DNA of 25,578 bases from a virus. The notes beneath the pieces are model-generated. The model was not told the DNA's origin. It was given only the letters and a program-made list of their open reading frames with translations, and did not search any database. A program made the translations under genes and the position numbers. Of this stretch, positions 1 through 9,491 are shown one piece after another (the stretch's first letter is position 1; each line of letters opens with the position of its first letter). The stretch spans positions 1-25,578 of the IMG/VR virus record IMGVR_UViG_3300024344_000116. The stretch is one strand, 5' to 3'.

Positions 1-2
1 TA

Positions 3-41
3 CGAAACGCATTAATTGAACACTGGTATGTAAAAGATTAA
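3..41 (+). CDS. Possible 3' end of an upstream gene (partial)
   Basis: In the third forward frame the window opens with an uninterrupted stretch that reads RNALIEHWYVKD and ends in TAA at 39-41. The other two frames stop within 18 bases. The stretch is short, so it could be chance, but it fits a gene that ends just before the methyltransferase leader and belongs to the same + strand replication module. No function can be given. Confidence 0.35.
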   Translation, partial: RNALIEHWYVKD

Positions 42-53
42 CGTGAACAAATC

Positions 54-76
54 GTCAAAGACAAACGTCAAGGACA
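54..76 (+). promoter_or_regulatory. Leader element, copy 1: two GTCAANGACA half-sites 13 bp apart
   Basis: GTCAAAGACA (54-63) is followed by GTCAAGGACA (67-76), with 8 bases before the methyltransferase ATG. A second element of the same design lies upstream of the SSB-like gene at 1198-1220, and 19 of 23 positions are identical. The AAGGA at the end of this copy can also act as the Shine-Dalgarno sequence for the methyltransferase. Whether it is an operator, a phage-type promoter or an RNA-level control site is not known. Confidence 0.5.
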
Positions 77-84
77 GCTAAAAA

Positions 85-1104
85 ATGATACAAATAAAAA
101 TCGGTAACTGCCGAAAGTTATTGAAAGAAATACCGAGGAAGTCAATCCAATCTACCATAACATCGCCTCCGTATTACGGATTGAGAGACTACGGAACCGC
201 ATCGTGGATTGGTGGAGATCCGAGTTGTCCACACAAAAGACTTTCTAAAATATCAGCCGATACAACAACAGGACATCAGGCAATGTATCAATCGGGTAGT
301 GTAGTAGGTGACGCTATCTACAAATCGGTTTGTCCATTATGCGGAGCAGTCCGAGAGGACGAGCAAATAGGATTAGAGGAAACGCCAGAGGAGTATGTTG
401 CAAATCTTGTAGAGGTATTTCGTGAGGTGCGAGAAACGTTATCCGACGACGGGACGCTCTGGTTGAATCTTGGGGACACATATTGTGGAGCAAGTGCGAT
501 TCCTGGAATTAAAGAAAAAGATTTGATCGGCATACCGTGGATGGTAGCCTTTGCGTTACGCAACGACGGATGGTATCTCCGACAAGATATTATTTGGCAT
601 AAGCCAAACCCTATGCCCGAACCCGTACGAGATCGTTGCACTAAATCGCACGAGTATATATTTCTGTTGAGCAAGAGTAGGAATTATTATTATGATAACG
701 AAGCGATAAAAGAAAAATCTACTTATCCTGACGGTCCAAATTCACCGAAAAAAATTGTAGCGGGCGTGGGAGAATATGGAATGGATACACGGAAAGGATT
801 ATCTAAAATTGGTGTAAATGAAAAACGGAATAAACGATCTGTCTGGAGGGTTAACCCTGCAAGTCTACCAGACGCACATTTCGCTACCTTCCCTGAGAAA
901 CTTATACTACCAATGGTTTTGGCTTCAACGAAACCTAACGATACAATATTAGATCCATTTGCGGGATCAGGGACAACTGGATTAGTAGCAGGTAAACACA
1001 ACCGAGACGCGATACTCATCGAACTCAACCCTGACTACAAAAAGATTATCGACAAACGATTAGAGGGAGATTTATTTTTCAGTGCTGAAACGGAGGGAAA
1101 ATAG
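85..1104 (+). CDS. Beta-class DNA methyltransferase (N6-adenine or N4-cytosine)
   Basis: This enzyme should transfer a methyl group from S-adenosylmethionine to an exocyclic amino group of adenine or cytosine. The catalytic motif IV, TSPPYYGLRDYG, is at residues 26-37. The SAM-binding motif I, DPFAGSGTTG, comes near the C-terminus at 290-299. The order IV, target recognition, I defines the beta class (N6_N4_Mtase family). An insert carries C48, H50, C83 and C86, which looks like a small zinc-binding module. LWLNLGDTY follows around residues 125-133, as in related phage enzymes. At 339 residues it is a normal complete length. The start is supported by AAGGA about 9 bases upstream. No restriction partner is adjacent, so it is probably an orphan enzyme protecting phage DNA from host nucleases. 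The target sequence cannot be read from the protein. Confidence 0.92.
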   Translation: MIQIKIGNCRKLLKEIPRKSIQSTITSPPYYGLRDYGTASWIGGDPSCPHKRLSKISADTTTGHQAMYQSGSVVGDAIYKSVCPLCGAVREDEQIGLEETPEEYVANLVEVFREVRETLSDDGTLWLNLGDTYCGASAIPGIKEKDLIGIPWMVAFALRNDGWYLRQDIIWHKPNPMPEPVRDRCTKSHEYIFLLSKSRNYYYDNEAIKEKSTYPDGPNSPKKIVAGVGEYGMDTRKGLSKIGVNEKRNKRSVWRVNPASLPDAHFATFPEKLILPMVLASTKPNDTILDPFAGSGTTGLVAGKHNRDAILIELNPDYKKIIDKRLEGDLFFSAETEGK

Positions 1105-1137
1105 AAACGGCTAAAAGTTTTCACTTGCAAATTTTGA

Positions 1138-1168
1138 GGCTCTATGTGAAATAGGCCACGATTTTTTT
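1138..1168 (+). terminator. Candidate intrinsic terminator after the methyltransferase
   Basis: GGC-T-CTAT (1138-1145) can pair with ATAGGCC (1151-1157), leaving one bulged T and a GTGAA loop. A run of seven T (1162-1168) follows four bases later. It lies in the 130-base gap before the SSB-like gene and would end the methyltransferase transcript. The stem is only 7 bp with a bulge, so strength is uncertain. The rest of the gap is AT-rich and holds the leader element at 1198-1220. Confidence 0.45.
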
Positions 1169-1197
1169 GACTTTTATTTTTTACAAAAACCAAAACA

Positions 1198-1220
1198 GTC
1201 AACGACATATGTCAACGACA
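1198..1220 (+). promoter_or_regulatory. Leader element, copy 2: two GTCAACGACA half-sites 13 bp apart
   Basis: GTCAACGACA occurs at 1198-1207 and again at 1211-1220. The junction forms a perfect 10-bp palindrome, GACATATGTC (1204-1213). The ATG of the SSB-like gene follows after 14 bases. The matching element before the methyltransferase (54-76) keeps the same half-sites, the same 13-bp period and the GAC-N4-GTC junction. Two half-sites a little over one helical turn apart fit a dimeric DNA-binding protein. An RNA-level operator or origin iterons are alternatives. Confidence 0.5.
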
Positions 1221-1234
1221 GAAAGAAATTCAAA

Positions 1235-1852
1235 ATGGGATTTTTAGATTTAAACACAACGCAACAATTTTTACCACGTTTCGACCTTGATCTACGAGCA
1301 GGTAGGTTTTTTGCAGTCGAGAGAACGCAAGGTGCAGACGGAGAATGGACTTCAGAAAAAATTGAAGTTGAGTCTCCATCGTTTGGCGTAGATATTGGTA
1401 ACACTGCTATTGGCTACACCGCATTTATCGACAACCGTCCCGATAGCATTATGCACCATCAGGAGGACGGAATGCCCGCTCAACCCTCGCCTGAACATAA
1501 ACCAGGATTTGAAGTCACTGTCAAATTGATTGGTGGAGATTTCGACGGATCGGTTCGTAAATTCGGCAAACAGGGACTAACGATTGGTCGAGCTTTCGAC
1601 GAACTCGTGGACGCTTGGCAAGCACACAAAAACTCTCAAGACAAGACGAAAGTTCCCGTAGTTACTGTGACGGGATCTATCCCGATCAAAGCAGGTAAGT
1701 CCACAAACTACGCTCCGAAATGGGGAATCGCAAAATGGATTGCCCGTCCAGAGGAGTTCGACCAGTGGATACCGCAACGCATCGACGTTGACGCAGAACG
1801 TGCGAAACAAGATGTGATAGACAAGATTAACGGTGACGAATTACCGTTTTAA
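1235..1852 (+). CDS. Candidate phage single-stranded DNA-binding protein
   Basis: This 205-residue protein ends in GDELPF, which closely resembles the acidic tip ending in PF of bacterial SSB that recruits replication proteins. The body is rich in alternating hydrophobic and polar strands, for example VTVKLIGGDFDG and KVPVVTVTGSIPIK, compatible with an OB-like fold. An aromatic and basic patch (YAPKWGIAKWIARP) sits before the tail and could contact DNA. I recall similar uncharacterised proteins in replication modules of other phages with a comparable N-terminal pattern (FLPxFDxxxRAGRFF). The neighbours, a RusA resolvase and a primase-helicase, support a role coating single-stranded DNA at the fork. 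The assignment rests on the tail, length and context rather than a full family match. The start follows the paired leader element with only a weak purine-rich Shine-Dalgarno region. Confidence 0.6.
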   Translation: MGFLDLNTTQQFLPRFDLDLRAGRFFAVERTQGADGEWTSEKIEVESPSFGVDIGNTAIGYTAFIDNRPDSIMHHQEDGMPAQPSPEHKPGFEVTVKLIGGDFDGSVRKFGKQGLTIGRAFDELVDAWQAHKNSQDKTKVPVVTVTGSIPIKAGKSTNYAPKWGIAKWIARPEEFDQWIPQRIDVDAERAKQDVIDKINGDELPF

Positions 1853-1891
1853 TCACTTTCTCTAATCTCTAATATTTGTTATATTCGACGA

Positions 1892-1911
1892 CCCGTATAA
1901 TTAACTACGGG
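1892..1911 (+). promoter_or_regulatory. Hairpin overlapping a TATAAT hexamer before rusA
   Basis: CCCGTA (1892-1897) is an exact inverted repeat of TACGGG (1906-1911) around an 8-base AT-rich loop. A TATAAT hexamer lies inside it at 1896-1901. A TTGTTA at 1876-1881 is 14 bases upstream of that hexamer, which is shorter than an ideal sigma70 spacer. It could be a promoter with an overlapping operator, or an RNA hairpin limiting access to the rusA start 8 bases downstream. Confidence 0.3.
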
Positions 1912-1919
1912 CGTTGAAT

Positions 1920-2297
1920 ATGACAAAACAAATACTAATCCTACAAGGTGAATTGCCCGCAATTAATGAGATCATTGCAGCTTCCAAGTCTCATTACTCA
2001 AAATATGCACGAGTAAAACGAGCAAACACAAACCTTGTAGCGTTAGAGTGTAGAGTCCAAGAATTAAAACCAATAGACAAACCCGTATCAGTTTTATTTG
2101 CACACTATCGCAAGAGTAAACGGAAAGATCCTGACAACGTTGCGGGAGGTGCTCAGAAAATGATATTGGATGGTCTTGTTACAGCGGGAGTTTTACCCGA
2201 CGACACAATGAAATATATAAAATCATTACACCATACATTTATAATTGATAAGATCAAACCGAGGATAGAGGTTGTAATCTATGTTGACGACATCTGA
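1920..2297 (+). CDS. rusA: RusA-family Holliday junction resolvase
   Basis: RusA enzymes are small dimeric, metal-dependent endonucleases that cut four-way DNA junctions made during replication and recombination. Starting at ATG 1920, the protein has 125 residues, the usual family size. The catalytic acidic signature is clear: KRKDPDNVAGG gives D70 and D72, and AGVLPDD gives D94 and D95. The segment between them (QKMILDGLV) matches the conserved helix of the family. Conserved basic residues (RKSKRK, 64-69) lie just before the active site. A TTG two codons earlier at 1914 is in frame, but the ATG is the more likely start. The 3' end overlaps the primase-helicase gene by 17 bases, which suggests translational coupling. 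Its position inside a replication module supports clearing branched DNA before packaging. Confidence 0.88.
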   Translation: MTKQILILQGELPAINEIIAASKSHYSKYARVKRANTNLVALECRVQELKPIDKPVSVLFAHYRKSKRKDPDNVAGGAQKMILDGLVTAGVLPDDTMKYIKSLHHTFIIDKIKPRIEVVIYVDDI

Positions 2298-4551
2298 TAA
2301 ATCAAATCCGAGATTAACCTCTGCGATAAAATATGCGGAGATGGGATGGTATGTTTTTCCAGTTCATTTTGTAACTACTAAAAAAGAATGTAGTTGTGGA
2401 CATAGCAACTGCAACAGCGTAGGCAAGCACCCAATTAGCATAAGCGGATTAAACGACGCAACAACCGACATCGAAACAATTACTCAGTGGTGGAGAAAAC
2501 AACCCTACGCCAACGTCGGTATCCGTACTGGAGAGATTAGCGGGATAGATGTTATAGACATCGACGAGAGATCGGGAGGAAAAGAAACTTGGTCTGACCT
2601 TGAGCGTGAGTATGGTCCTATTGACTCAACGCCAATGGCTACAACTGGTGGAGGCGGGACACACATATATATCGAATACACTGGTAGACTGCATTCGCAA
2701 AACGAAACGCTACAGGGAGTTGACGTTAAATCCGACGGTGGATATGTATTAGCGGAACCGTCGAACCATGTTATGGGATCGTACGAATGGGAGTTGATTC
2801 TGGAACCGTTCGACACTCCAGTTGTTAATCTATCGGTAACAAACGACAAACTCTATAGTTATATTGTAGAATCACAAAACGAACGAGTTCCAACAACACC
2901 AGAATTAAAAGAAGTTCCACGAGTAATTTCAGAAGGATCCCGCAACTCTAAACTAACGTCGGTTGCGGGAGGGTTACGTCGTCGAGGCTTGAACTCCGAC
3001 GAGATATCTTTATTGCTACACCAGTATAACCAGAGATTTTGCGACCCTCCATTAGACGCTACAGAGATTGACAGAATATCTCAATCAATGGAGCGTTACG
3101 AACCAGAGCCTCCTCCACCATCAACTATAGATCCTGAAATTGGAGTTACTGCCAACGCTCCTCTACTGGCATCGGGTCTACCACTAACCGACGCAGGTAA
3201 CCGCGATAGATTAGTTGCGAGATATGGGAAACAAATACTCTATGTCCCAGAAGAAGGATGGAAACTTTGGTCTGGCGTATGTTGGGAAAAAGATCAAACT
3301 AATCGCGTAACGGAAATGGCACTCGACACTGCACGAGTTATACGAGCGGAGGAACAGACGGGAGTAGTTGATAAACAGGGAGTTGATAAAGCAGAGAAAT
3401 GGTCTTACGCTTCCGAAGCATTGCCAAAAATAAAAGCAATGACCACGCTTGCTGAATCGCACCCTTCGATTGTTAGCAGTGTCAATGATCTCGACAAACA
3501 TTTATATTTATTTAACGCATCGAATACAACATTAGATTTAATTGAACAAGAAGCGATTGACCCTGATCCCACCCATAGGTTGACTCAAGTTTCAAGAATG
3601 AAATATAACCCCGAAGCAACTTGTCCATATTGGGAAGAATTTTTATCTCAAATATTACCCGACAAAAAAGTTGTCCGTCACCTACAAAAATATCTTGGTC
3701 TTTCGCTCACTGGCGACATGACCGCAGAAGCAATTTTTATTTTGTTTGGAGATGGTGCAAATGGTAAGAGTTTATTATTGGAAGCGTTGGCTTATCTTAT
3801 GGGAGACTATCTGAGCAACGCTCCCGCCCATACATTTTTATCGTCGTCGAGAAACGAATCCATACGGAATGACCTTGCCATGTTACGTTCATCAAGATTA
3901 GTTACGGTGAGTGAAACAAACAAAGGTTCCACGCTCGACGAATCTGTCATTAAGCGTACGGTGAGCGGTGATCTGGAAACCGCTCGCTTCCTTCACAAGG
4001 AATTTTTCCAGTTCCGACCAAAATATAAAATATTATTAGCAACAAACAATAAACCCGAAATCTCAGGTGCAACACATGGAACATGGAGACGACTACACCT
4101 GATTGAGTTTGGAGTAAAATTTGGAACTCCTGGTCACCCCGTTGCAGGTAAGAAGGACGAGATTATTGCAAAGTTAAAATCAGAATCGTCTGGGATATTG
4201 AATTGGATGATGAAAGGATTTCAAATGTATCGTGAGGAGGGATTGATACAACCAGACGCTGTAGACAACGCGACCAGAAGTTACCGAGAAGAGCAAGATC
4301 CATTGCTTGAGTTTATCTCCTCCTCCTGTATAGTCGATAATATACTTTCGATCAGCGTTACCGATCTAAGGGAGGCATACAACGCCTACACAGGAGAAGA
4401 CCAGAGTTCAGTTTGGTTTGGACGAGCGATGTCCGAACATGGATACAAAGCATCTCGCGTAGGTTCAGCGAGAATGCGAGTCTATAAAGGGATTGCTCTT
4501 AATGAGGAAAGCCAAAGTCTACTACAGAGGAATCAACGAGGAATTAACTAA
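2281..4551 (+). CDS. Prim-pol primase fused to D5-like SF3 helicase
   Basis: A 756-residue replication protein that should make primers and unwind DNA at the fork. Residues 10-175 form a bifunctional primase/polymerase domain of the archaeo-eukaryotic type. It has YAEMGWYVFPVHF, a Cys/His cluster (C37, C39, H41, C44), GKHP (48-51), the metal-binding DVIDIDER (D93, D95) and TGGGGTHIYI (122-131). A PriCT-like helical segment spans about 215-272. The second half is a D5_N/SF3 ATPase with Walker A GDGANGKS (490-497), a Walker B-like RLVTVSE (539-545), sensor LLATNNKP (585-592) and candidate arginine fingers R603/R604. The start overlaps the end of rusA, and AGAGG lies upstream. The stop overlaps the last late gene on the other strand by 8 bases. 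No DNA polymerase is in the window, so synthesis beyond priming comes from elsewhere. Confidence 0.93.
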   Translation: MLTTSDKSNPRLTSAIKYAEMGWYVFPVHFVTTKKECSCGHSNCNSVGKHPISISGLNDATTDIETITQWWRKQPYANVGIRTGEISGIDVIDIDERSGGKETWSDLEREYGPIDSTPMATTGGGGTHIYIEYTGRLHSQNETLQGVDVKSDGGYVLAEPSNHVMGSYEWELILEPFDTPVVNLSVTNDKLYSYIVESQNERVPTTPELKEVPRVISEGSRNSKLTSVAGGLRRRGLNSDEISLLLHQYNQRFCDPPLDATEIDRISQSMERYEPEPPPPSTIDPEIGVTANAPLLASGLPLTDAGNRDRLVARYGKQILYVPEEGWKLWSGVCWEKDQTNRVTEMALDTARVIRAEEQTGVVDKQGVDKAEKWSYASEALPKIKAMTTLAESHPSIVSSVNDLDKHLYLFNASNTTLDLIEQEAIDPDPTHRLTQVSRMKYNPEATCPYWEEFLSQILPDKKVVRHLQKYLGLSLTGDMTAEAIFILFGDGANGKSLLLEALAYLMGDYLSNAPAHTFLSSSRNESIRNDLAMLRSSRLVTVSETNKGSTLDESVIKRTVSGDLETARFLHKEFFQFRPKYKILLATNNKPEISGATHGTWRRLHLIEFGVKFGTPGHPVAGKKDEIIAKLKSESSGILNWMMKGFQMYREEGLIQPDAVDNATRSYREEQDPLLEFISSSCIVDNILSISVTDLREAYNAYTGEDQSSVWFGRAMSEHGYKASRVGSARMRVYKGIALNEESQSLLQRNQRGIN

Positions 4552-4840
4552 TGACTTTATTTAGAGCTTCTCTTGCTTCAAGCGTGTCTTTTACAAGCCG
4601 TCCCAAAGTCTGACAAAGATACTCGGATTCTTCTGGGCTTATTTTTCCGTCGTCGGCTAAAGCTATTCTATATTTGTCGCTCAAAAGGTTAAGAGAAATA
4701 AATGCGTCATGCACTTCTTTCCACGCCTTTTTAGCGTCGGATATTCTCTTGGCTTGCTTAACTGCAACAGCACTAACTGCACCAACTACTGCTCCTCCAC
4801 CAACTATTGCAGAGGGTATATCGCTGAGAAAATCAAACAT
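4544..4840 (-). CDS. Small membrane protein, holin-like, unknown function
   Basis: A 98-residue protein with one hydrophobic, glycine- and alanine-rich segment at residues 9-28 (AIVGGGAVVGAVSAVAV) that could cross a membrane or oligomerise through GxxxG-like packing. A charged helical region follows. Residues 63-71 (DDGKISPEE) resemble half of a calcium-binding loop, but one such loop is weak evidence. A good Shine-Dalgarno (AAAGGA) precedes the ATG. It is the last gene of the late operon, directly after the tRNA-like gene, and its 3' end overlaps the primase-helicase gene tail to tail. Size, hydrophobic N-terminus and position after the virion genes suit a holin or other lysis accessory, but no sequence motif proves this. 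Confidence 0.6.
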   Translation of the reverse strand: MFDFLSDIPSAIVGGGAVVGAVSAVAVKQAKRISDAKKAWKEVHDAFISLNLLSDKYRIALADDGKISPEESEYLCQTLGRLVKDTLEAREALNKVIS

Positions 4841-4857
4841 TTTTAATCCTTTCTGAA

Positions 4858-4931
4858 TGGTAGCGGGAAATGGAATCGAACCATTTCTACCAGAGAATGA
4901 GCCTGGGGTGCTTCCATTACACTATCCCGCG
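4858..4931 (-). tRNA. tRNA-like gene, CAU anticodon (Met-type or lysidine-Ile), encoded CCA
   Basis: The 74 bases fold as a full cloverleaf: acceptor CGCGGGA with TCCCGCT, U8-A9, D stem GTGT/GCAC with loop AATGGAA, anticodon stem CCAGG/TCTGG with loop CTCATTC, a 4-base variable loop, T stem AATGG/CCATT with loop TTCGATT, then ACCA. The anticodon reads CAU (complement at 4897-4899). Two features are odd. Pair 1-72 is a C-U mismatch, a position that is also unpaired in bacterial initiator tRNA. Base 37 is U where a purine is normal. The three stacked G-C pairs typical of an initiator anticodon stem are absent. It lies 5 bases after the stop of one late gene and shortly before the Shine-Dalgarno of the next, so it must be cut out of the late mRNA. 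It may be functional, degenerate or a structural mimic. Confidence 0.72.
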
Positions 4932-4936
4932 ACACA

Positions 4937-5245
4937 TTACTCTGATGTTTTTTCAAGTTCCGCTTCAGGTTCAGGTTCTTCTCCTGGTCCTTCTAACGCA
5001 AACTGTATCCCCTTTAACGCACCGTTTAGTTCTCTGAGGGTAGGGTCTGCGGTTAATATAGCGTCTATACGTTCGTCTCGTTGACGTTCAAGATCTTTTT
5101 TAATTGACTCTAATTGGTCAACGCTTGCACCAGATGTTTTACCATTCGTAGCCATACCAGTTCCTTTGTTGTTCGATGGGAAAAATTCTTTATGCACCAT
5201 CGGAGTTTTTTGACGGGAGTTTCCTCGTCGTTTTTTTGTTGCCAT
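4937..5245 (-). CDS. Small basic/acidic protein, unknown, with an internal start
   Basis: From the ATG at 5245 this reads 102 residues: a strongly basic N-terminus (MATKKRRGNSRQK), a helical charged middle (DQLESIKKDLERQRDERID) and an acidic tail (EEPEPEAELEK). The open frame continues upstream to 5308, but that part lies over the preceding 51-residue gene, so the 5245 start, one base after that gene's stop, is preferred. A second in-frame ATG at 5155 (MATNGKTSGASV) has a strong AAAGGA about 7 bases before it, whereas the first ATG has a weak one. The 72-residue short form could be the main product, or both could be made. No family recognised; the charge pattern suggests a nucleic-acid or virion-associated role. 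Confidence 0.6.
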   Translation of the reverse strand: MATKKRRGNSRQKTPMVHKEFFPSNNKGTGMATNGKTSGASVDQLESIKKDLERQRDERIDAILTADPTLRELNGALKGIQFALEGPGEEPEPEAELEKTSE

Positions 5246-5402: not shown

Positions 5403-5692
5403 TACCATTTCACCTTGTCAGCCCAATACGCTGCTGACATCGGACCACGTTTTATATTCGCAGAATGACGAGCCTTAAAACTTGATCGCTTGCTTTTCAT
5501 TGCTTGCGATTCACCAGACTTAGGTTTACCTGCTGTCTTAGCTCCCTGTTGACCAAATCGAATTGTCTTAACTTTGCCATTAGATTTAGCAACAACAACA
5601 TGAGATTTAGTTTTATGACTCGGAGTTCGACGAGGTTTATTGTAGCCACTAACACCTGCTCGTTTTAACCGAGAATCTTTTTTTACAGGCAT
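5402..5692 (-). CDS. 96-residue basic protein with RFGQQG and AAYWADKVKW motifs
   Basis: A lysine- and arginine-rich protein that starts MPVKKDSRLKRAGVSGYNKP, has KVKTIRFGQQGAKT near the middle (about 56-69) and ends FKARHSANIKRGP then MSAAYWADKVKW. I recall this motif set, especially the SFKARH and AAYWADKVKW ending, from a widespread but uncharacterised small protein of marine phages. Both ends overlap neighbouring genes by one base as TAATG, so it is tightly coupled within the late operon. The GQQG and aromatic C-terminal motifs imply a small ordered domain, not just a basic tail. Possible roles are nucleic-acid binding or a minor virion part. Function cannot be assigned from sequence. Confidence 0.85.
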   Translation of the reverse strand: MPVKKDSRLKRAGVSGYNKPRRTPSHKTKSHVVVAKSNGKVKTIRFGQQGAKTAGKPKSGESQAMKSKRSSFKARHSANIKRGPMSAAYWADKVKW

Positions 5693-5805
5693 TACCTACC
5701 TCGTGGTTTACTCTTTGGTTTTGCTTTCATTTTTTCTTTAGCTTTTTTAGCTTTAGCTTTACCTGCTTTTGTGTATGCGTATTTTTTTCCACCAACCATT
5801 GGCAT
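5692..5805 (-). CDS. 37-residue lysine-rich mini-protein (MPMVGGKKYAYT type)
   Basis: The product reads MPMVGGKKYAYTKAGKAKAK followed by a lysine-rich tail ending KPRGR. I recall close relatives (MPMVxGKKxxYT then KAGKAKAKK) from marine phages, without known function. A strong Shine-Dalgarno (AAGGAG) lies about 9 bases before the ATG, overlapping the end of the preceding membrane-protein gene. Its stop overlaps the next start as TAATG. It is the first of four consecutive small basic genes that probably work at the same stage of infection. Confidence 0.8.
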   Translation of the reverse strand: MPMVGGKKYAYTKAGKAKAKKAKEKMKAKPKSKPRGR

Positions 5806-5807
5806 AA

Positions 5808-6212
5808 TTAAATCTCCTTCTTAGGATGTAAATTACTTAAATCTAATTTGTCTAATTGTCGTTCAATTAGCAAGTTCTTTAATTCTGAATTGCTAACGTT
5901 CAAAAGCGTTCCACCTGTAGGAACTCCAGTCTTCGGATCAATGTCATACAGGTAAAACGTTGTAGACAAAACCCCACATTTAGAAATCCTACCTCCTCGA
6001 CGTTGCCCTCCTACCGTTAGGTAAACCGTTTGGTTTTCAGTATATTCCGAACCGAGGAAAACACTTGCCCCTGCAAGCAAATTTTCCACCGATTGTCGCA
6101 AGCAAAGCAAAACAGTAAGCACAATAAAATACCACCAATACTGCTCGACTAATAACCCCAGACCACTTGAGTCTGAGAATTTTTGCAACGCTTCCGTAGC
6201 TTCTGTTTCCAT
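5808..6212 (-). CDS. MscS-like mini membrane protein (one TM plus beta domain)
   Basis: A 134-residue protein with a hydrophobic span at about 25-38 (YWWYFIVLTVLLCL), an amphipathic stretch at 39-53 (SVENLLAGASVFL), then a beta-rich domain. The stretch matches the pattern of small mechanosensitive channels (MscS): a pore helix containing NLLAG, then VYLTVGGQRRGGRI, a TTFYLYD strand, and GGTLLNVSNSEL (100-111), which corresponds to the VPNS element of the MscS middle domain. The large C-terminal vestibule and the first two transmembrane helices of MscS are missing. Known MscS proteins form heptameric channels gated by membrane tension. Here the inference is a minimal, channel-like membrane protein. 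It sits among other small membrane genes after the fibre, a usual place for lysis functions. The resemblance is by pattern only. Confidence 0.6.
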   Translation of the reverse strand: METEATEALQKFSDSSGLGLLVEQYWWYFIVLTVLLCLRQSVENLLAGASVFLGSEYTENQTVYLTVGGQRRGGRISKCGVLSTTFYLYDIDPKTGVPTGGTLLNVSNSELKNLLIERQLDKLDLSNLHPKKEI

Positions 6213-6641: not shown

Positions 6642-9491
6642 TTAACTCCCCTCAAGAACTGCAATTCGTGCTTTTGCAGAATCTAATTCTGTTTTAAGCT
6701 CTTTAAAAGCGTTGACGAAAGCGTATGTCAAATTAGAAGAATCCCACATATACAAGTCTATTTCGTTTTCGTCTGACTCTTCCAGTTTGCTTTTGCGAGT
6801 AGAGATACAATCGTTAAATATTCCTGCACTTACAATTTCTTGTGCAATTACTCCAACAAACTCTTCACCAGTAGATTTTAATCCACCTTTACCGTTTAGC
6901 GTGTACTTTTTTGGATTAATCTGTATAATGTCTGATAAACCTGTAGTATACGCATCACCTACGTTTTTTAGACGTTCATCGGACGAGTTAGTCCAACTTC
7001 CTCCACCAGATTTTGACGCATTGCCAGATGCCCACATAGCAAAAGCACCACTGGCATCGGAAATTGTTGTGGTGGCTGTTGGCGTTACTGCATCACCTGC
7101 GCTATTACTCGCTGTGCCACTGTATAAATCTATATTTCCAGATTGGAAACGAAGTAAGCCGTATCCTCTACTGGTGGTTGATTCAATAGCGTGCCAATCC
7201 ATTGAAGAAGCACCTTCATGATACAAGTTGTAAGCAATCCAACCTGGCCTGTAGGACGCCGTTTCCGTCCCGTAGACCATCGAAATTCGATCTGTTGAAT
7301 ACGCCTGTATAGAGGCTCCGTACGAATGGCGTGTGTCTATAGCTAAATTGTTATTGTCATAAGTCAATGTACTTTCTACTGTTGCTTCATCGCTGTCTTT
7401 AAACGTGGCCACTCCATTAGCAGTTGAGCCGTCCCAAGAAATACCACCAGAGCTTGCAGTAGTCCATGACAAAGCACCAGATCCGTTTGTCGTAAGGACT
7501 TGATCCGCATCTCCATCGGTGTTTGGAAATGTGAGCGTTACATCCCCTGCCAGAGCAGGTGTAGTTAATGTAAGTTTGTGTGCTCCATCATCAGTGTCTT
7601 CGTAAATTTCAATCTTACCTGCTGATGTTGCACCATTACCAACTGCTAACGTGCCTGTAACAGTAGTTGCTCCAGAAGCTAAAGCTCCAGTAGTTGTAAT
7701 TGTTGACGATCCTATATTGATATTGCCAAATCCAGAAGTAATACTTCCAGAATTAAGAGCACCAGTTGTTACAATAGAGCTACTTCCCGCAACAACAGAA
7801 TAATCTCCAGTAGCGGCAACTGCCATTGTTCCAAGCCCTAACGACGTTCTTACGGTAGATCCGCTTTCGGCAACCCAACCACTTGCCGAACCAACAATAA
7901 AATTACCATCTGAATTTGATAAACCTGCAATAGCTGTTAAGTCAGCATCTAATGCTTGATACAATGATCCTAATGCAGTGCCATCCAAAGTAATTGCATC
8001 TGCTTCAAGCGTCCCGTCGATATCCGCATTGCCTGAAACATCTAACGACCCTGCGTCTAATTCACCACTCAACGTAACGTTTGCAAATCCTGTGGCATTA
8101 TTGCTATCGTCTATAGTGACTCCAGAATTTTGTCCCGTCTTTCCACCCGTCCCGTCAAAACGAACAATAGCATTATCAGTTGCCGAGCCAGGACCACTAA
8201 AGTCGCCTACTCCAGTTCCACTAACAGCCGACCATTCAGGTATAGATGATCCTTGCTTTAAGAAATGTCCCGCAGTTCCTTTACCAAGTCGAGCAAGAAA
8301 CCCAGAAGAATTTCGATAATATAAATCTCCTTCGGAATCGCTTCCTACCGCTAACCCGTAATTGGTTAAAATCATATCGTCGGCTGACTCGTCAAACAAA
8401 ACCGATGATCCTGATGTAGCACCAAAGAACTTGACATCGTAACCAGTATCATCAACTCCAACTGTTACCGTTCCGTCGATTTGAGTTGCTCCGTCGATAT
8501 CTACTGCATCAAGGTTTGTCGTCCCGTCTATGTCGGCATCACCTGATATATCTAACGTCGCACCGTCCAACTCTCCCGACGCAGTAAGGTTAACGACTCC
8601 CGTAATGTTATTTGAATCGTCAATCAAAACCGAACTTGCTTGGAGAGTTGCTGCTCCCGTTCCGTTTGCACGAGGAACCGCATTATCTGTAGAGCCTAAA
8701 GTTCCACCAATCGTTCCCGAACCCGAAGCATCAACATAGGCTTTAATAGATTGTTGTGTTGCAAGTTTCGTAGCAGAATCAGAAGCCATATTATCTTCAT
8801 CTAATACCGCTGTTCCAGAAACTCCAGTATTCAATACTGCGGAAGTTAATGTCTTATTGGTTAACGTATCAGTAGTTGCTTTTCCTACAAGCGTATCCGT
8901 AGAAGCAGGTAGTGTAAGAGTGACATCAGCAGTAGAAGCGGGACCAATCAGCGTAACCGCATTAGATCCGTTGTCGCTGTCTTCGTAAAACTTTACAAAC
9001 CCCGCACTGGTAGATCCGTTTTTAACCTCCGCTCCAACATTGGCAGTAACTAAACCTGCGAACGTTGCAACTTGAGAACTCGACAACGTTAACGCTGTTG
9101 TAGTATTAGTTGTAAATGTTAACGCATTAGAAGAATGAGAGTAAGAAATCTTACCAATATCATTATCACCAGAATCACCAAAGAAAATATTACCCGCTCC
9201 AGATGTTCCAGAAAAAATAGTCAAACCCGTAGTCGAACTATTCTCAAGGACTAACTCGTCACCGTCTCCTGAAGCACTTACCGATCCCGCCGAAGCCGAG
9301 TGAACATGTAATTCTCCGTCTGGAGAAGTAATGCCCGAACCAACAACAACTCCACCAAATACATAATCAGTAGTTTGGTTCATGTCTGATGTTGTTATGG
9401 TATGGTTATATATATTGAGATATTCTGCGTTTAAATCCGACGCAGTTAACGTCTCACCTGTTGCCCAACTTTTTACTGGACTAAGATTCAT
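6642..9491 (-). CDS. Tail fibre with S74 self-cleaving chaperone C-terminus
   Basis: A 949-residue fibre that should form a trimer and contact the host surface. The N-terminus (WATGETLTASDLNAEYLNI, 9-27) matches the virion-attachment start common in phage fibres. Residues 50-680 are beta-rich, low-complexity Ser/Thr/Gly/Asp sequence containing two pairs of duplicated modules. Residues 680-830 look like a distinct, possibly receptor-binding region (HSYGASIQAYSTDRISMVYG, YRPGWIAYNLYHEG). The C-terminus from about 835 is an intramolecular chaperone of endosialidase (peptidase S74): NSSDERLKN gives the Ser837/Lys842 dyad expected for self-cleavage before Ser837, then GEEFVGVIAQEI and a terminal coiled coil (FKELKTELDSAKARIAVLE). 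After trimer folding the chaperone should be released. AAAGGA precedes the ATG. It is the last large virion gene, the usual place for a fibre. Confidence 0.9.
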   Translation of the reverse strand: MNLSPVKSWATGETLTASDLNAEYLNIYNHTITTSDMNQTTDYVFGGVVVGSGITSPDGELHVHSASAGSVSASGDGDELVLENSSTTGLTIFSGTSGAGNIFFGDSGDNDIGKISYSHSSNALTFTTNTTTALTLSSSQVATFAGLVTANVGAEVKNGSTSAGFVKFYEDSDNGSNAVTLIGPASTADVTLTLPASTDTLVGKATTDTLTNKTLTSAVLNTGVSGTAVLDEDNMASDSATKLATQQSIKAYVDASGSGTIGGTLGSTDNAVPRANGTGAATLQASSVLIDDSNNITGVVNLTASGELDGATLDISGDADIDGTTNLDAVDIDGATQIDGTVTVGVDDTGYDVKFFGATSGSSVLFDESADDMILTNYGLAVGSDSEGDLYYRNSSGFLARLGKGTAGHFLKQGSSIPEWSAVSGTGVGDFSGPGSATDNAIVRFDGTGGKTGQNSGVTIDDSNNATGFANVTLSGELDAGSLDVSGNADIDGTLEADAITLDGTALGSLYQALDADLTAIAGLSNSDGNFIVGSASGWVAESGSTVRTSLGLGTMAVAATGDYSVVAGSSSIVTTGALNSGSITSGFGNINIGSSTITTTGALASGATTVTGTLAVGNGATSAGKIEIYEDTDDGAHKLTLTTPALAGDVTLTFPNTDGDADQVLTTNGSGALSWTTASSGGISWDGSTANGVATFKDSDEATVESTLTYDNNNLAIDTRHSYGASIQAYSTDRISMVYGTETASYRPGWIAYNLYHEGASSMDWHAIESTTSRGYGLLRFQSGNIDLYSGTASNSAGDAVTPTATTTISDASGAFAMWASGNASKSGGGSWTNSSDERLKNVGDAYTTGLSDIIQINPKKYTLNGKGGLKSTGEEFVGVIAQEIVSAGIFNDCISTRKSKLEESDENEIDLYMWDSSNLTYAFVNAFKELKTELDSAKARIAVLEGS
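7494..9023 (-). repeat. Second duplicated fibre module (copies 8886-9023 and 7494-7640)
   Basis: Residues 157-202 and 618-666 share the pattern NGxTSAGxxxxYEDxDxGxxxxTLxxPAxxxDVTLTxP. The two copies flank the other duplicated module, so the fibre shaft seems to have grown by block duplication. Confidence 0.75.
8010..8696 (-). repeat. Duplicated about 59-residue fibre module (two copies)
   Basis: Residues 266-324 (8520-8696) and 435-494 (8010-8189) of the fibre share the sequence pattern STDNAxxRxxGTG, then VxIDDSNNxTG, LxxSGELDxxxLDxSGxADIDGT. The DNA is similar but clearly diverged, so this is an old intragenic duplication and not an assembly artefact. Confidence 0.85.

Follow-up and report, generated by a model that had tools for sequence, protein, structure and literature searches.

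A covarying hairpin before an SSB-like gene and a DNA methyltransferase gene, a candidate translational operator in a virus from IMG/VR and its relatives

Why should a virus carry the same short paired element directly in front of two genes that encode unrelated products? The window analysed here is the whole of a 25,578-nucleotide stretch, positions 1 to 25,578 of IMG/VR virus record IMGVR_UViG_3300024344_000116, and an earlier note on its sequence had described a 23-base element that occurs twice, each time as a tandem repeat with a 13-bp period. We found both elements where they had been placed, at 54-76 (GTCAAAGACAAACGTCAAGGACA) and at 1198-1220 (GTCAACGACATATGTCAACGACA), and could read from the sequence that they share 19 of 23 bases, that they end 8 nt 5' of the ATG at 85 (a methyltransferase gene, MTase) and 14 nt 5' of the ATG at 1235 (an SSB-like gene, ssb), and that each has a GAC-N4-GTC junction, palindromic in copy 2. 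Searching both strands of the 25.6 kb for GTCAANGACA-N3-GTCAANGACA with up to three mismatches returned these two matches only, and thus the paired pattern is absent from the genes of the window, where its random occurrence had been proposed as a refutation. Dinucleotide shuffles gave a mean of 0.03 matches to the paired pattern, with none of 100 shuffles reaching two; the single 10-mer with one mismatch allowed was not enriched in the window (10 observed versus 6.6 expected). Copy 2 also contains HincII- and NdeI-like sites, but these were dropped as a possible MTase target because copy 1 does not have them.

The genes that follow the two elements are all on the plus strand. The first (85-1104, 339 aa) encodes an N6/N4 DNA methyltransferase (PF01555, E-value 1.7e-51; phrog_67) and the second (1235-1852) a 205-residue SSB-like protein. 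The replication-module label given to this region was apt, since a RusA-like Holliday junction resolvase (1920-2297; phrog_1682, 2.9e-28) and a primase-polymerase/helicase (2281-4551; PF09250, PF08706) come after the ssb-like gene. A tRNA-Met (CAT) lies on the minus strand at 4858-4931, between the convergent early (+) and late (-) blocks.

The 205-residue protein had no Pfam or PHROG match, and our assignment of it comes from fold and context. An AlphaFold2 model built on a 17-row alignment (pLDDT 80.9) matched related, uncharacterised viral proteins by Foldseek (best E-value 1.7e-12); against the PDB, Foldseek gave no match at an E-value below 0.001 and a sequence profile search gave none that was convincing. 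VIA-align placed the model on the T4 gp32 core (1gpc) with a Z-score of 6.2 (rmsd 5.5 over 146 residues) and on RB69 gp32 with the same Z-score, a middling match that is backed by no sequence family; RPA scored 3.7. Based on the model, an acidic C-terminal tail (GDELPF) and the gene context, the protein is likely an SSB of the gp32-like kind. The top VIA-align score was to a phiC31 integrase-RDF fusion chain (Z 7.3), and apart from this chain and the two gp32 cores all scores were 4.2 and below. The phiC31 match hints that this recombination directionality factor and SSBs of the gp32-like kind have a fold in common.

Three IMG/VR contigs (L017, L018 and L019) encode an SSB-like protein 94-96% identical to that of the window, the ssb DNA being ~90% identical. 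Loss of the element in relatives that keep the genes had been named as a second refutation; instead, the element is present in all four ssb leaders of this group, with TAT or ACAT between the 10-mers, and in all three genomes that have the MTase gene. In L019 the MTase gene and its element are gone together in one deletion (8700-8920), a clean removal relative to L017 whose junction connects the end of a 71-aa gene with the MTase 3' end. Changes to the element among these relatives are confined to the spacer. In L018 the stretch preceding the ssb element has been replaced and shortened, with the element and its downstream sequence kept.

The early genes of L017, L018 and L019 have repeated TTGACA-N17-TATATA promoters and ACCGAGGAG leaders, neither of which occurs in the MTase and ssb leaders. 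In these early regions (e.g., L019:2700-8560) the promoters come with GTTGAGAGAGAGAAACC, followed by ACCGAGGAG before the ATG, and an alternative early leader has a GGGAGGGAGGAAC...CTCTCTCCC hairpin, again followed by ACCGAGGAG before the ATG. A second methyltransferase-like gene, of C5-cytosine type by its N-terminal sequence, lies in the early region of L018 (4957-6222), and its leader has no hairpin of the ssb/MTase kind. A sigma-70-like scan of the window identified no plus-strand site in 1-85 or 1105-1235, site numbers being equal to those in shuffles; on this result, and given the absence of the relatives' TTGACA-N17-TATATA from both leaders, we rejected a promoter just upstream.

Folded as RNA, every element alone gave the same RNAfold minimum free energy (MFE) structure, (((...(((....)))...))), and this remained the MFE fold within whole leaders of 58-68 nt, the motif appearing in 1-21 of 3000 dinucleotide shuffles per leader. 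The general plan is a 3-bp stem, a 3x3 A-rich internal loop, a 3-4-bp stem and a short terminal loop. In the MTase leader the predicted hairpin (54-75, conserved in L017 and L018) consists of an outer stem 54-56/73-75 (GUC/GAC), an internal loop 57-59/70-72 (AAA/AAG), an inner stem 60-62/67-69 (GAC/GUC) and a terminal loop 63-66, and its 3' arm contains AAGGA (70-74), a possible Shine-Dalgarno sequence for the MTase gene. The ssb-leader hairpin (1198-1219), GUC-AAC-GAC-auau-GUC-AAC-GAC, has an outer stem 1198-1200/1217-1219 (GUC/GAC), an internal loop 1201-1203/1214-1216 (AAC/AAC), an inner stem 1204-1206/1211-1213 (GAC/GUC) that can be extended by A1207-U1210, and a terminal loop 1207-1210; between it and the ssb start is an A-rich stretch (1220-1234, AGAAAGAAATTCAAA), predicted to be unpaired and with no clear Shine-Dalgarno sequence. 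In the window clade the loops and flanks of the MTase copy are unlike those of the ssb copy, suggesting that the MTase copy is older or independent.

Profile searches extended the family to L084, L085, L098-L103 and L104, whose SSB-like proteins are 56-65% identical to that of the window over the full alignment. Their ssb leaders read approximately GAC-AAM-GACC-gaau-GGUC-AAC-GUC, mostly followed by AGGAG and then the ATG, so that the outer stem is flipped between clades: GUC/GAC in the window, GAC/GUC in these relatives. In our alignment (A7) all 60 of 60 stem cells pair, with the middle pair of the outer stem switching between U-A and A-U from one clade to the other; 2 of 500 shuffles reached this score and slid registers paired at 0-43%. 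The fourth inner pair, which gaps kept out of this count, takes the forms A-U, C-G and G-C in three lineages; in L085 and in the MTase copy the two bases do not form a standard pair. These compensatory changes are limited to two pairs, and the independent lineages number only about five. L104 has three tiers (GGUC-AAC-GAC-ACC-GACG-aaacg-CGUC-ACA-GUC-ACA-GACC). In the alignment a nested hairpin accounts for all conserved pairs; RNAfold, from which the folds come, cannot predict pseudoknots. Stems of 3-4 bp with modest single-sequence energies (MFE -4 to -8 kcal/mol, -12.6 for L104; weak z-scores of 0 to -3) are the main weakness of the structural case. Even so, it is very probable that an RNA hairpin is conserved in the ssb leaders.

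What the wider set keeps is complementarity and not repetition. Across it the direct-repeat identity falls from 9/9 through 8/9 and 7/9 to 6/9, the stem pairs stay at 6/6, and the 3x3 internal loops form 0/3 Watson-Crick pairs throughout. The 13-bp tandem repeat is therefore true of the window copies and does not hold as the conserved feature of the family; judged from these sequences, it arises incidentally from a hairpin whose internal loops are symmetric, and we rejected direct repeats as a DNA site. A broader form of that idea, in which a phage regulator binds the repeats as a double-stranded DNA operator and controls transcription of ssb and MTase, could draw on the dyad and repeat symmetry, the intergenic location and the HTH proteins encoded in relatives, but we regard it as very unlikely. 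The A-rich internal-loop triplets (AAN) are on the same strand in both arms, an arrangement symmetric for a folded strand and not a duplex dyad, which argues for RNA over duplex DNA. Element size is 22-25 nt, and the terminal loop varies from 4 to 7 nt and the period from 13 to 16, variation that would be hard to reconcile with a DNA site in helical phase. In addition to the decay of the repeat under complete arm complementarity, the lack of a promoter-like site just upstream and the replaced upstream DNA in L018 count against a duplex operator, as does the fact that all copies are in the sense orientation and adjoin a start codon, at about 10-27 nt.

A survey of leaders indicated how closely the motif follows particular genes. 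The survey covered 282 leaders of ORFs of at least 70 aa in eleven loci, spurious ones not removed, and the motif formed in 13 of them: nine of ssb, three of MTase and one of an HTH gene in L084. As the motif descriptor was derived from these same sequences, the informative part is the zero among the remaining leaders. The hairpin is thus in nine of the ten ssb-like leaders of the family, and it occupies the same place in those nine. In L084 an excisionase-like HTH gene (HTH_17; 5622-6003) has been inserted between the full hairpin leader and ssb; the ssb leader itself is without the full hairpin after this insertion, and ssb is preceded by a duplicate of the leader's 3' half, predicted to form a simple UUGAC/GUCAA hairpin only. 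That the element is a chance short repeat, conserved through close relatedness alone, would be compatible with short stems and with the ~90% ssb DNA identity of L017-L019, but it is extremely improbable given the 0.03 matches expected in the window, the restriction of the 13 hits to the same gene classes, and the recurrence of the same architecture with a flipped stem at 56-65% protein identity.

A covariance model run on 12 whole contigs gave no other match better than an E-value of 0.13. When only the other clade was used for the model, the window elements ranked near the top with weak E-values (0.4-0.8; 0.15-0.8 across the leave-clade-out test), and a sequence-only model did not detect them. 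Rfam 15 returned only the tRNA for window positions 1-5000 at E-values up to 1, and no match for the relatives at the gathering threshold. In IMG/VR the paired pattern with 2-6-nt spacers was present in 59 stretches, those with spacers of 3 or 4 being confined to the window family and L008; the remaining stretches had spacers of 2, 5 or 6, some in tandem arrays. The other-clade pattern was found in 21 stretches, with no comparable leader outside the family. The L008 match (2111-2137, minus strand, GTCAACGACAAGCGTCAACGACAAGGAGG) lies directly 5' of the GTG start of a non-SSB gene in an unrelated high-GC contig and may be coincidence, with about one chance match expected in so large a collection. 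No relatives were found in sequenced bacterial genomes, and isolated phages yielded one distant SSB homolog (MW202711) without the element.

The comparisons establish a conserved, covarying structure placed before ssb, before MTase and before one gene inserted ahead of ssb; we infer its action in RNA (and not in single-stranded DNA), its repression of translation and its recognition by the SSB-like protein. A single-stranded DNA hairpin serving replication, as an origin iteron or a primase/SSB loading site, would suit the replication module, and single-stranded DNA can fold likewise; it is highly improbable, however, given that the position is tied to start codons and the sense strand, that copies move with genes (MTase, HTH), and that L019 lost one copy along with its gene. 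Of the four options in the earlier note, only the RNA site through which the SSB-like protein would regulate itself gained support; the DNA operator, the promoter class and the origin iterons are disfavoured.

Translational control by the hairpin is probable. Small sites in the ribosome-binding region at which a bound phage protein shuts off translation are familiar from the MS2 coat-protein hairpin and the T4 RegA sites, which are alike in size and location to the present element and differ in protein family, structure and sequence. In the mechanism we favour, somewhat more strongly than all others together, the hairpin is a translational operator for autogenous repression by the SSB-like protein, with the MTase gene under the same control. 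Its native site would be the ssb-like leader. Once single-stranded DNA is saturated, free SSB-like protein would bind its own leader, at the hairpin and the adjacent unpaired A-rich stretch; with the hairpin about 10-20 nt 5' of the start codon, protein bound there would block the 30S ribosome and halt ssb translation. The second, older copy would place the MTase gene under the same control.

The identity of the ligand is the less certain part of this proposal, the SSB-like protein being somewhat more likely than not to fill that role. A real RNA element that binds another phage or host protein, or that acts ligand-free as an RNase site, an mRNA stabiliser or a translation enhancer replacing the Shine-Dalgarno sequence, is the foremost alternative and in our view rather unlikely. 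It would fit the window-clade ssb leader, which has neither a clear Shine-Dalgarno sequence nor the early-gene ACCGAGGAG leader, and the presence of the hairpin also 5' of MTase and HTH genes, the SSB-like protein being a putative ligand only. Yet in L085, L098 and L101 the hairpin coexists with a good AGGAG, and so is no simple Shine-Dalgarno substitute, and ssb is its constant companion, as autoregulation predicts.

Textbooks describe SSBs that regulate themselves by binding their own mRNA, an example drawn mainly from the T4-like phages. In T4, gp32 shuts down its own message by way of a folded RNA element and a less structured segment at the ribosome-binding site; operators of T4-like phages differ from one another in sequence, and the T4/RB69 study calls it unclear how an SSB that binds regardless of sequence recognises its own mRNA (PMC535899). 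The arrangement in the window, as predicted by RNAfold, resembles the T4/RB69 gene 32 operator in that folded RNA precedes a less structured segment for ribosome binding in a phage SSB leader, and the operators of related phages diverge in both cases; in T4 a gene, segG, also overlaps the operator. The T4 operator, however, is a pseudoknot of ~28 nt with UUAAA/UAAA repeats, whereas a hairpin with a 3x3 internal loop is predicted here, ending 10-20 nt ahead of the start codon; no such repeats are found in window 1220-1234, and, unlike in T4, the hairpin is also copied 5' of an MTase gene. Because UUAAA repeats are absent and a pseudoknot is not established, this putative autogenous SSB operator would be a variant outside the T4 gp32 operator family. 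The STAXI RNA motif, found near SSB, topoisomerase, antirestriction and integrase genes, is likewise a candidate structured element tied to SSB and other DNA-handling genes; by its description it consists of two or three successive copies of a pseudoknot, in many cases with UUCG loops (PMC2864571), in contrast to the single small hairpin predicted here, which has no such loops.

More distant SSB homologs (~31-32% identity to the window's SSB-like protein) have a separate leader structure, located at L086:4850-4925, L087:5306-5378, L088:5895-5967, L089:5890-5964, L090:669-743 and L093:4316-4391. It comprises an invariant GCCC/GGGC hairpin, GAAGGC, and then a 7-bp stem with a GCCARA loop; five of the seven pairs of this stem are compensatory (0 of 500 shuffles), the CCA of the loop can pair with the UGG of the UGGAG Shine-Dalgarno region, and there was no Rfam match at the gathering threshold. 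Being a different structure, this leader supports the theme and not the window element itself, and from these leaders it seems that structured leaders are common among these SSB genes but that the particular element is exchanged over time. Tentatively, we may be dealing with a modular hairpin not described before, built from short stems and 3x3 A-rich internal loops and extendable tier by tier, that controls the SSB family's own synthesis and in one clade also the MTase, and that is replaced in distant homologs by a covarying leader with loop-to-Shine-Dalgarno pairing. If this is true, operator turnover in SSB autoregulation would be traceable across one protein family. As a small, conserved and covarying candidate target that comes in natural variants (with two tiers, with three, and as the MTase copy), the hairpin offers a compact test system, and it suggests that many phage SSB genes beyond the T4 group are controlled through their leader RNA.
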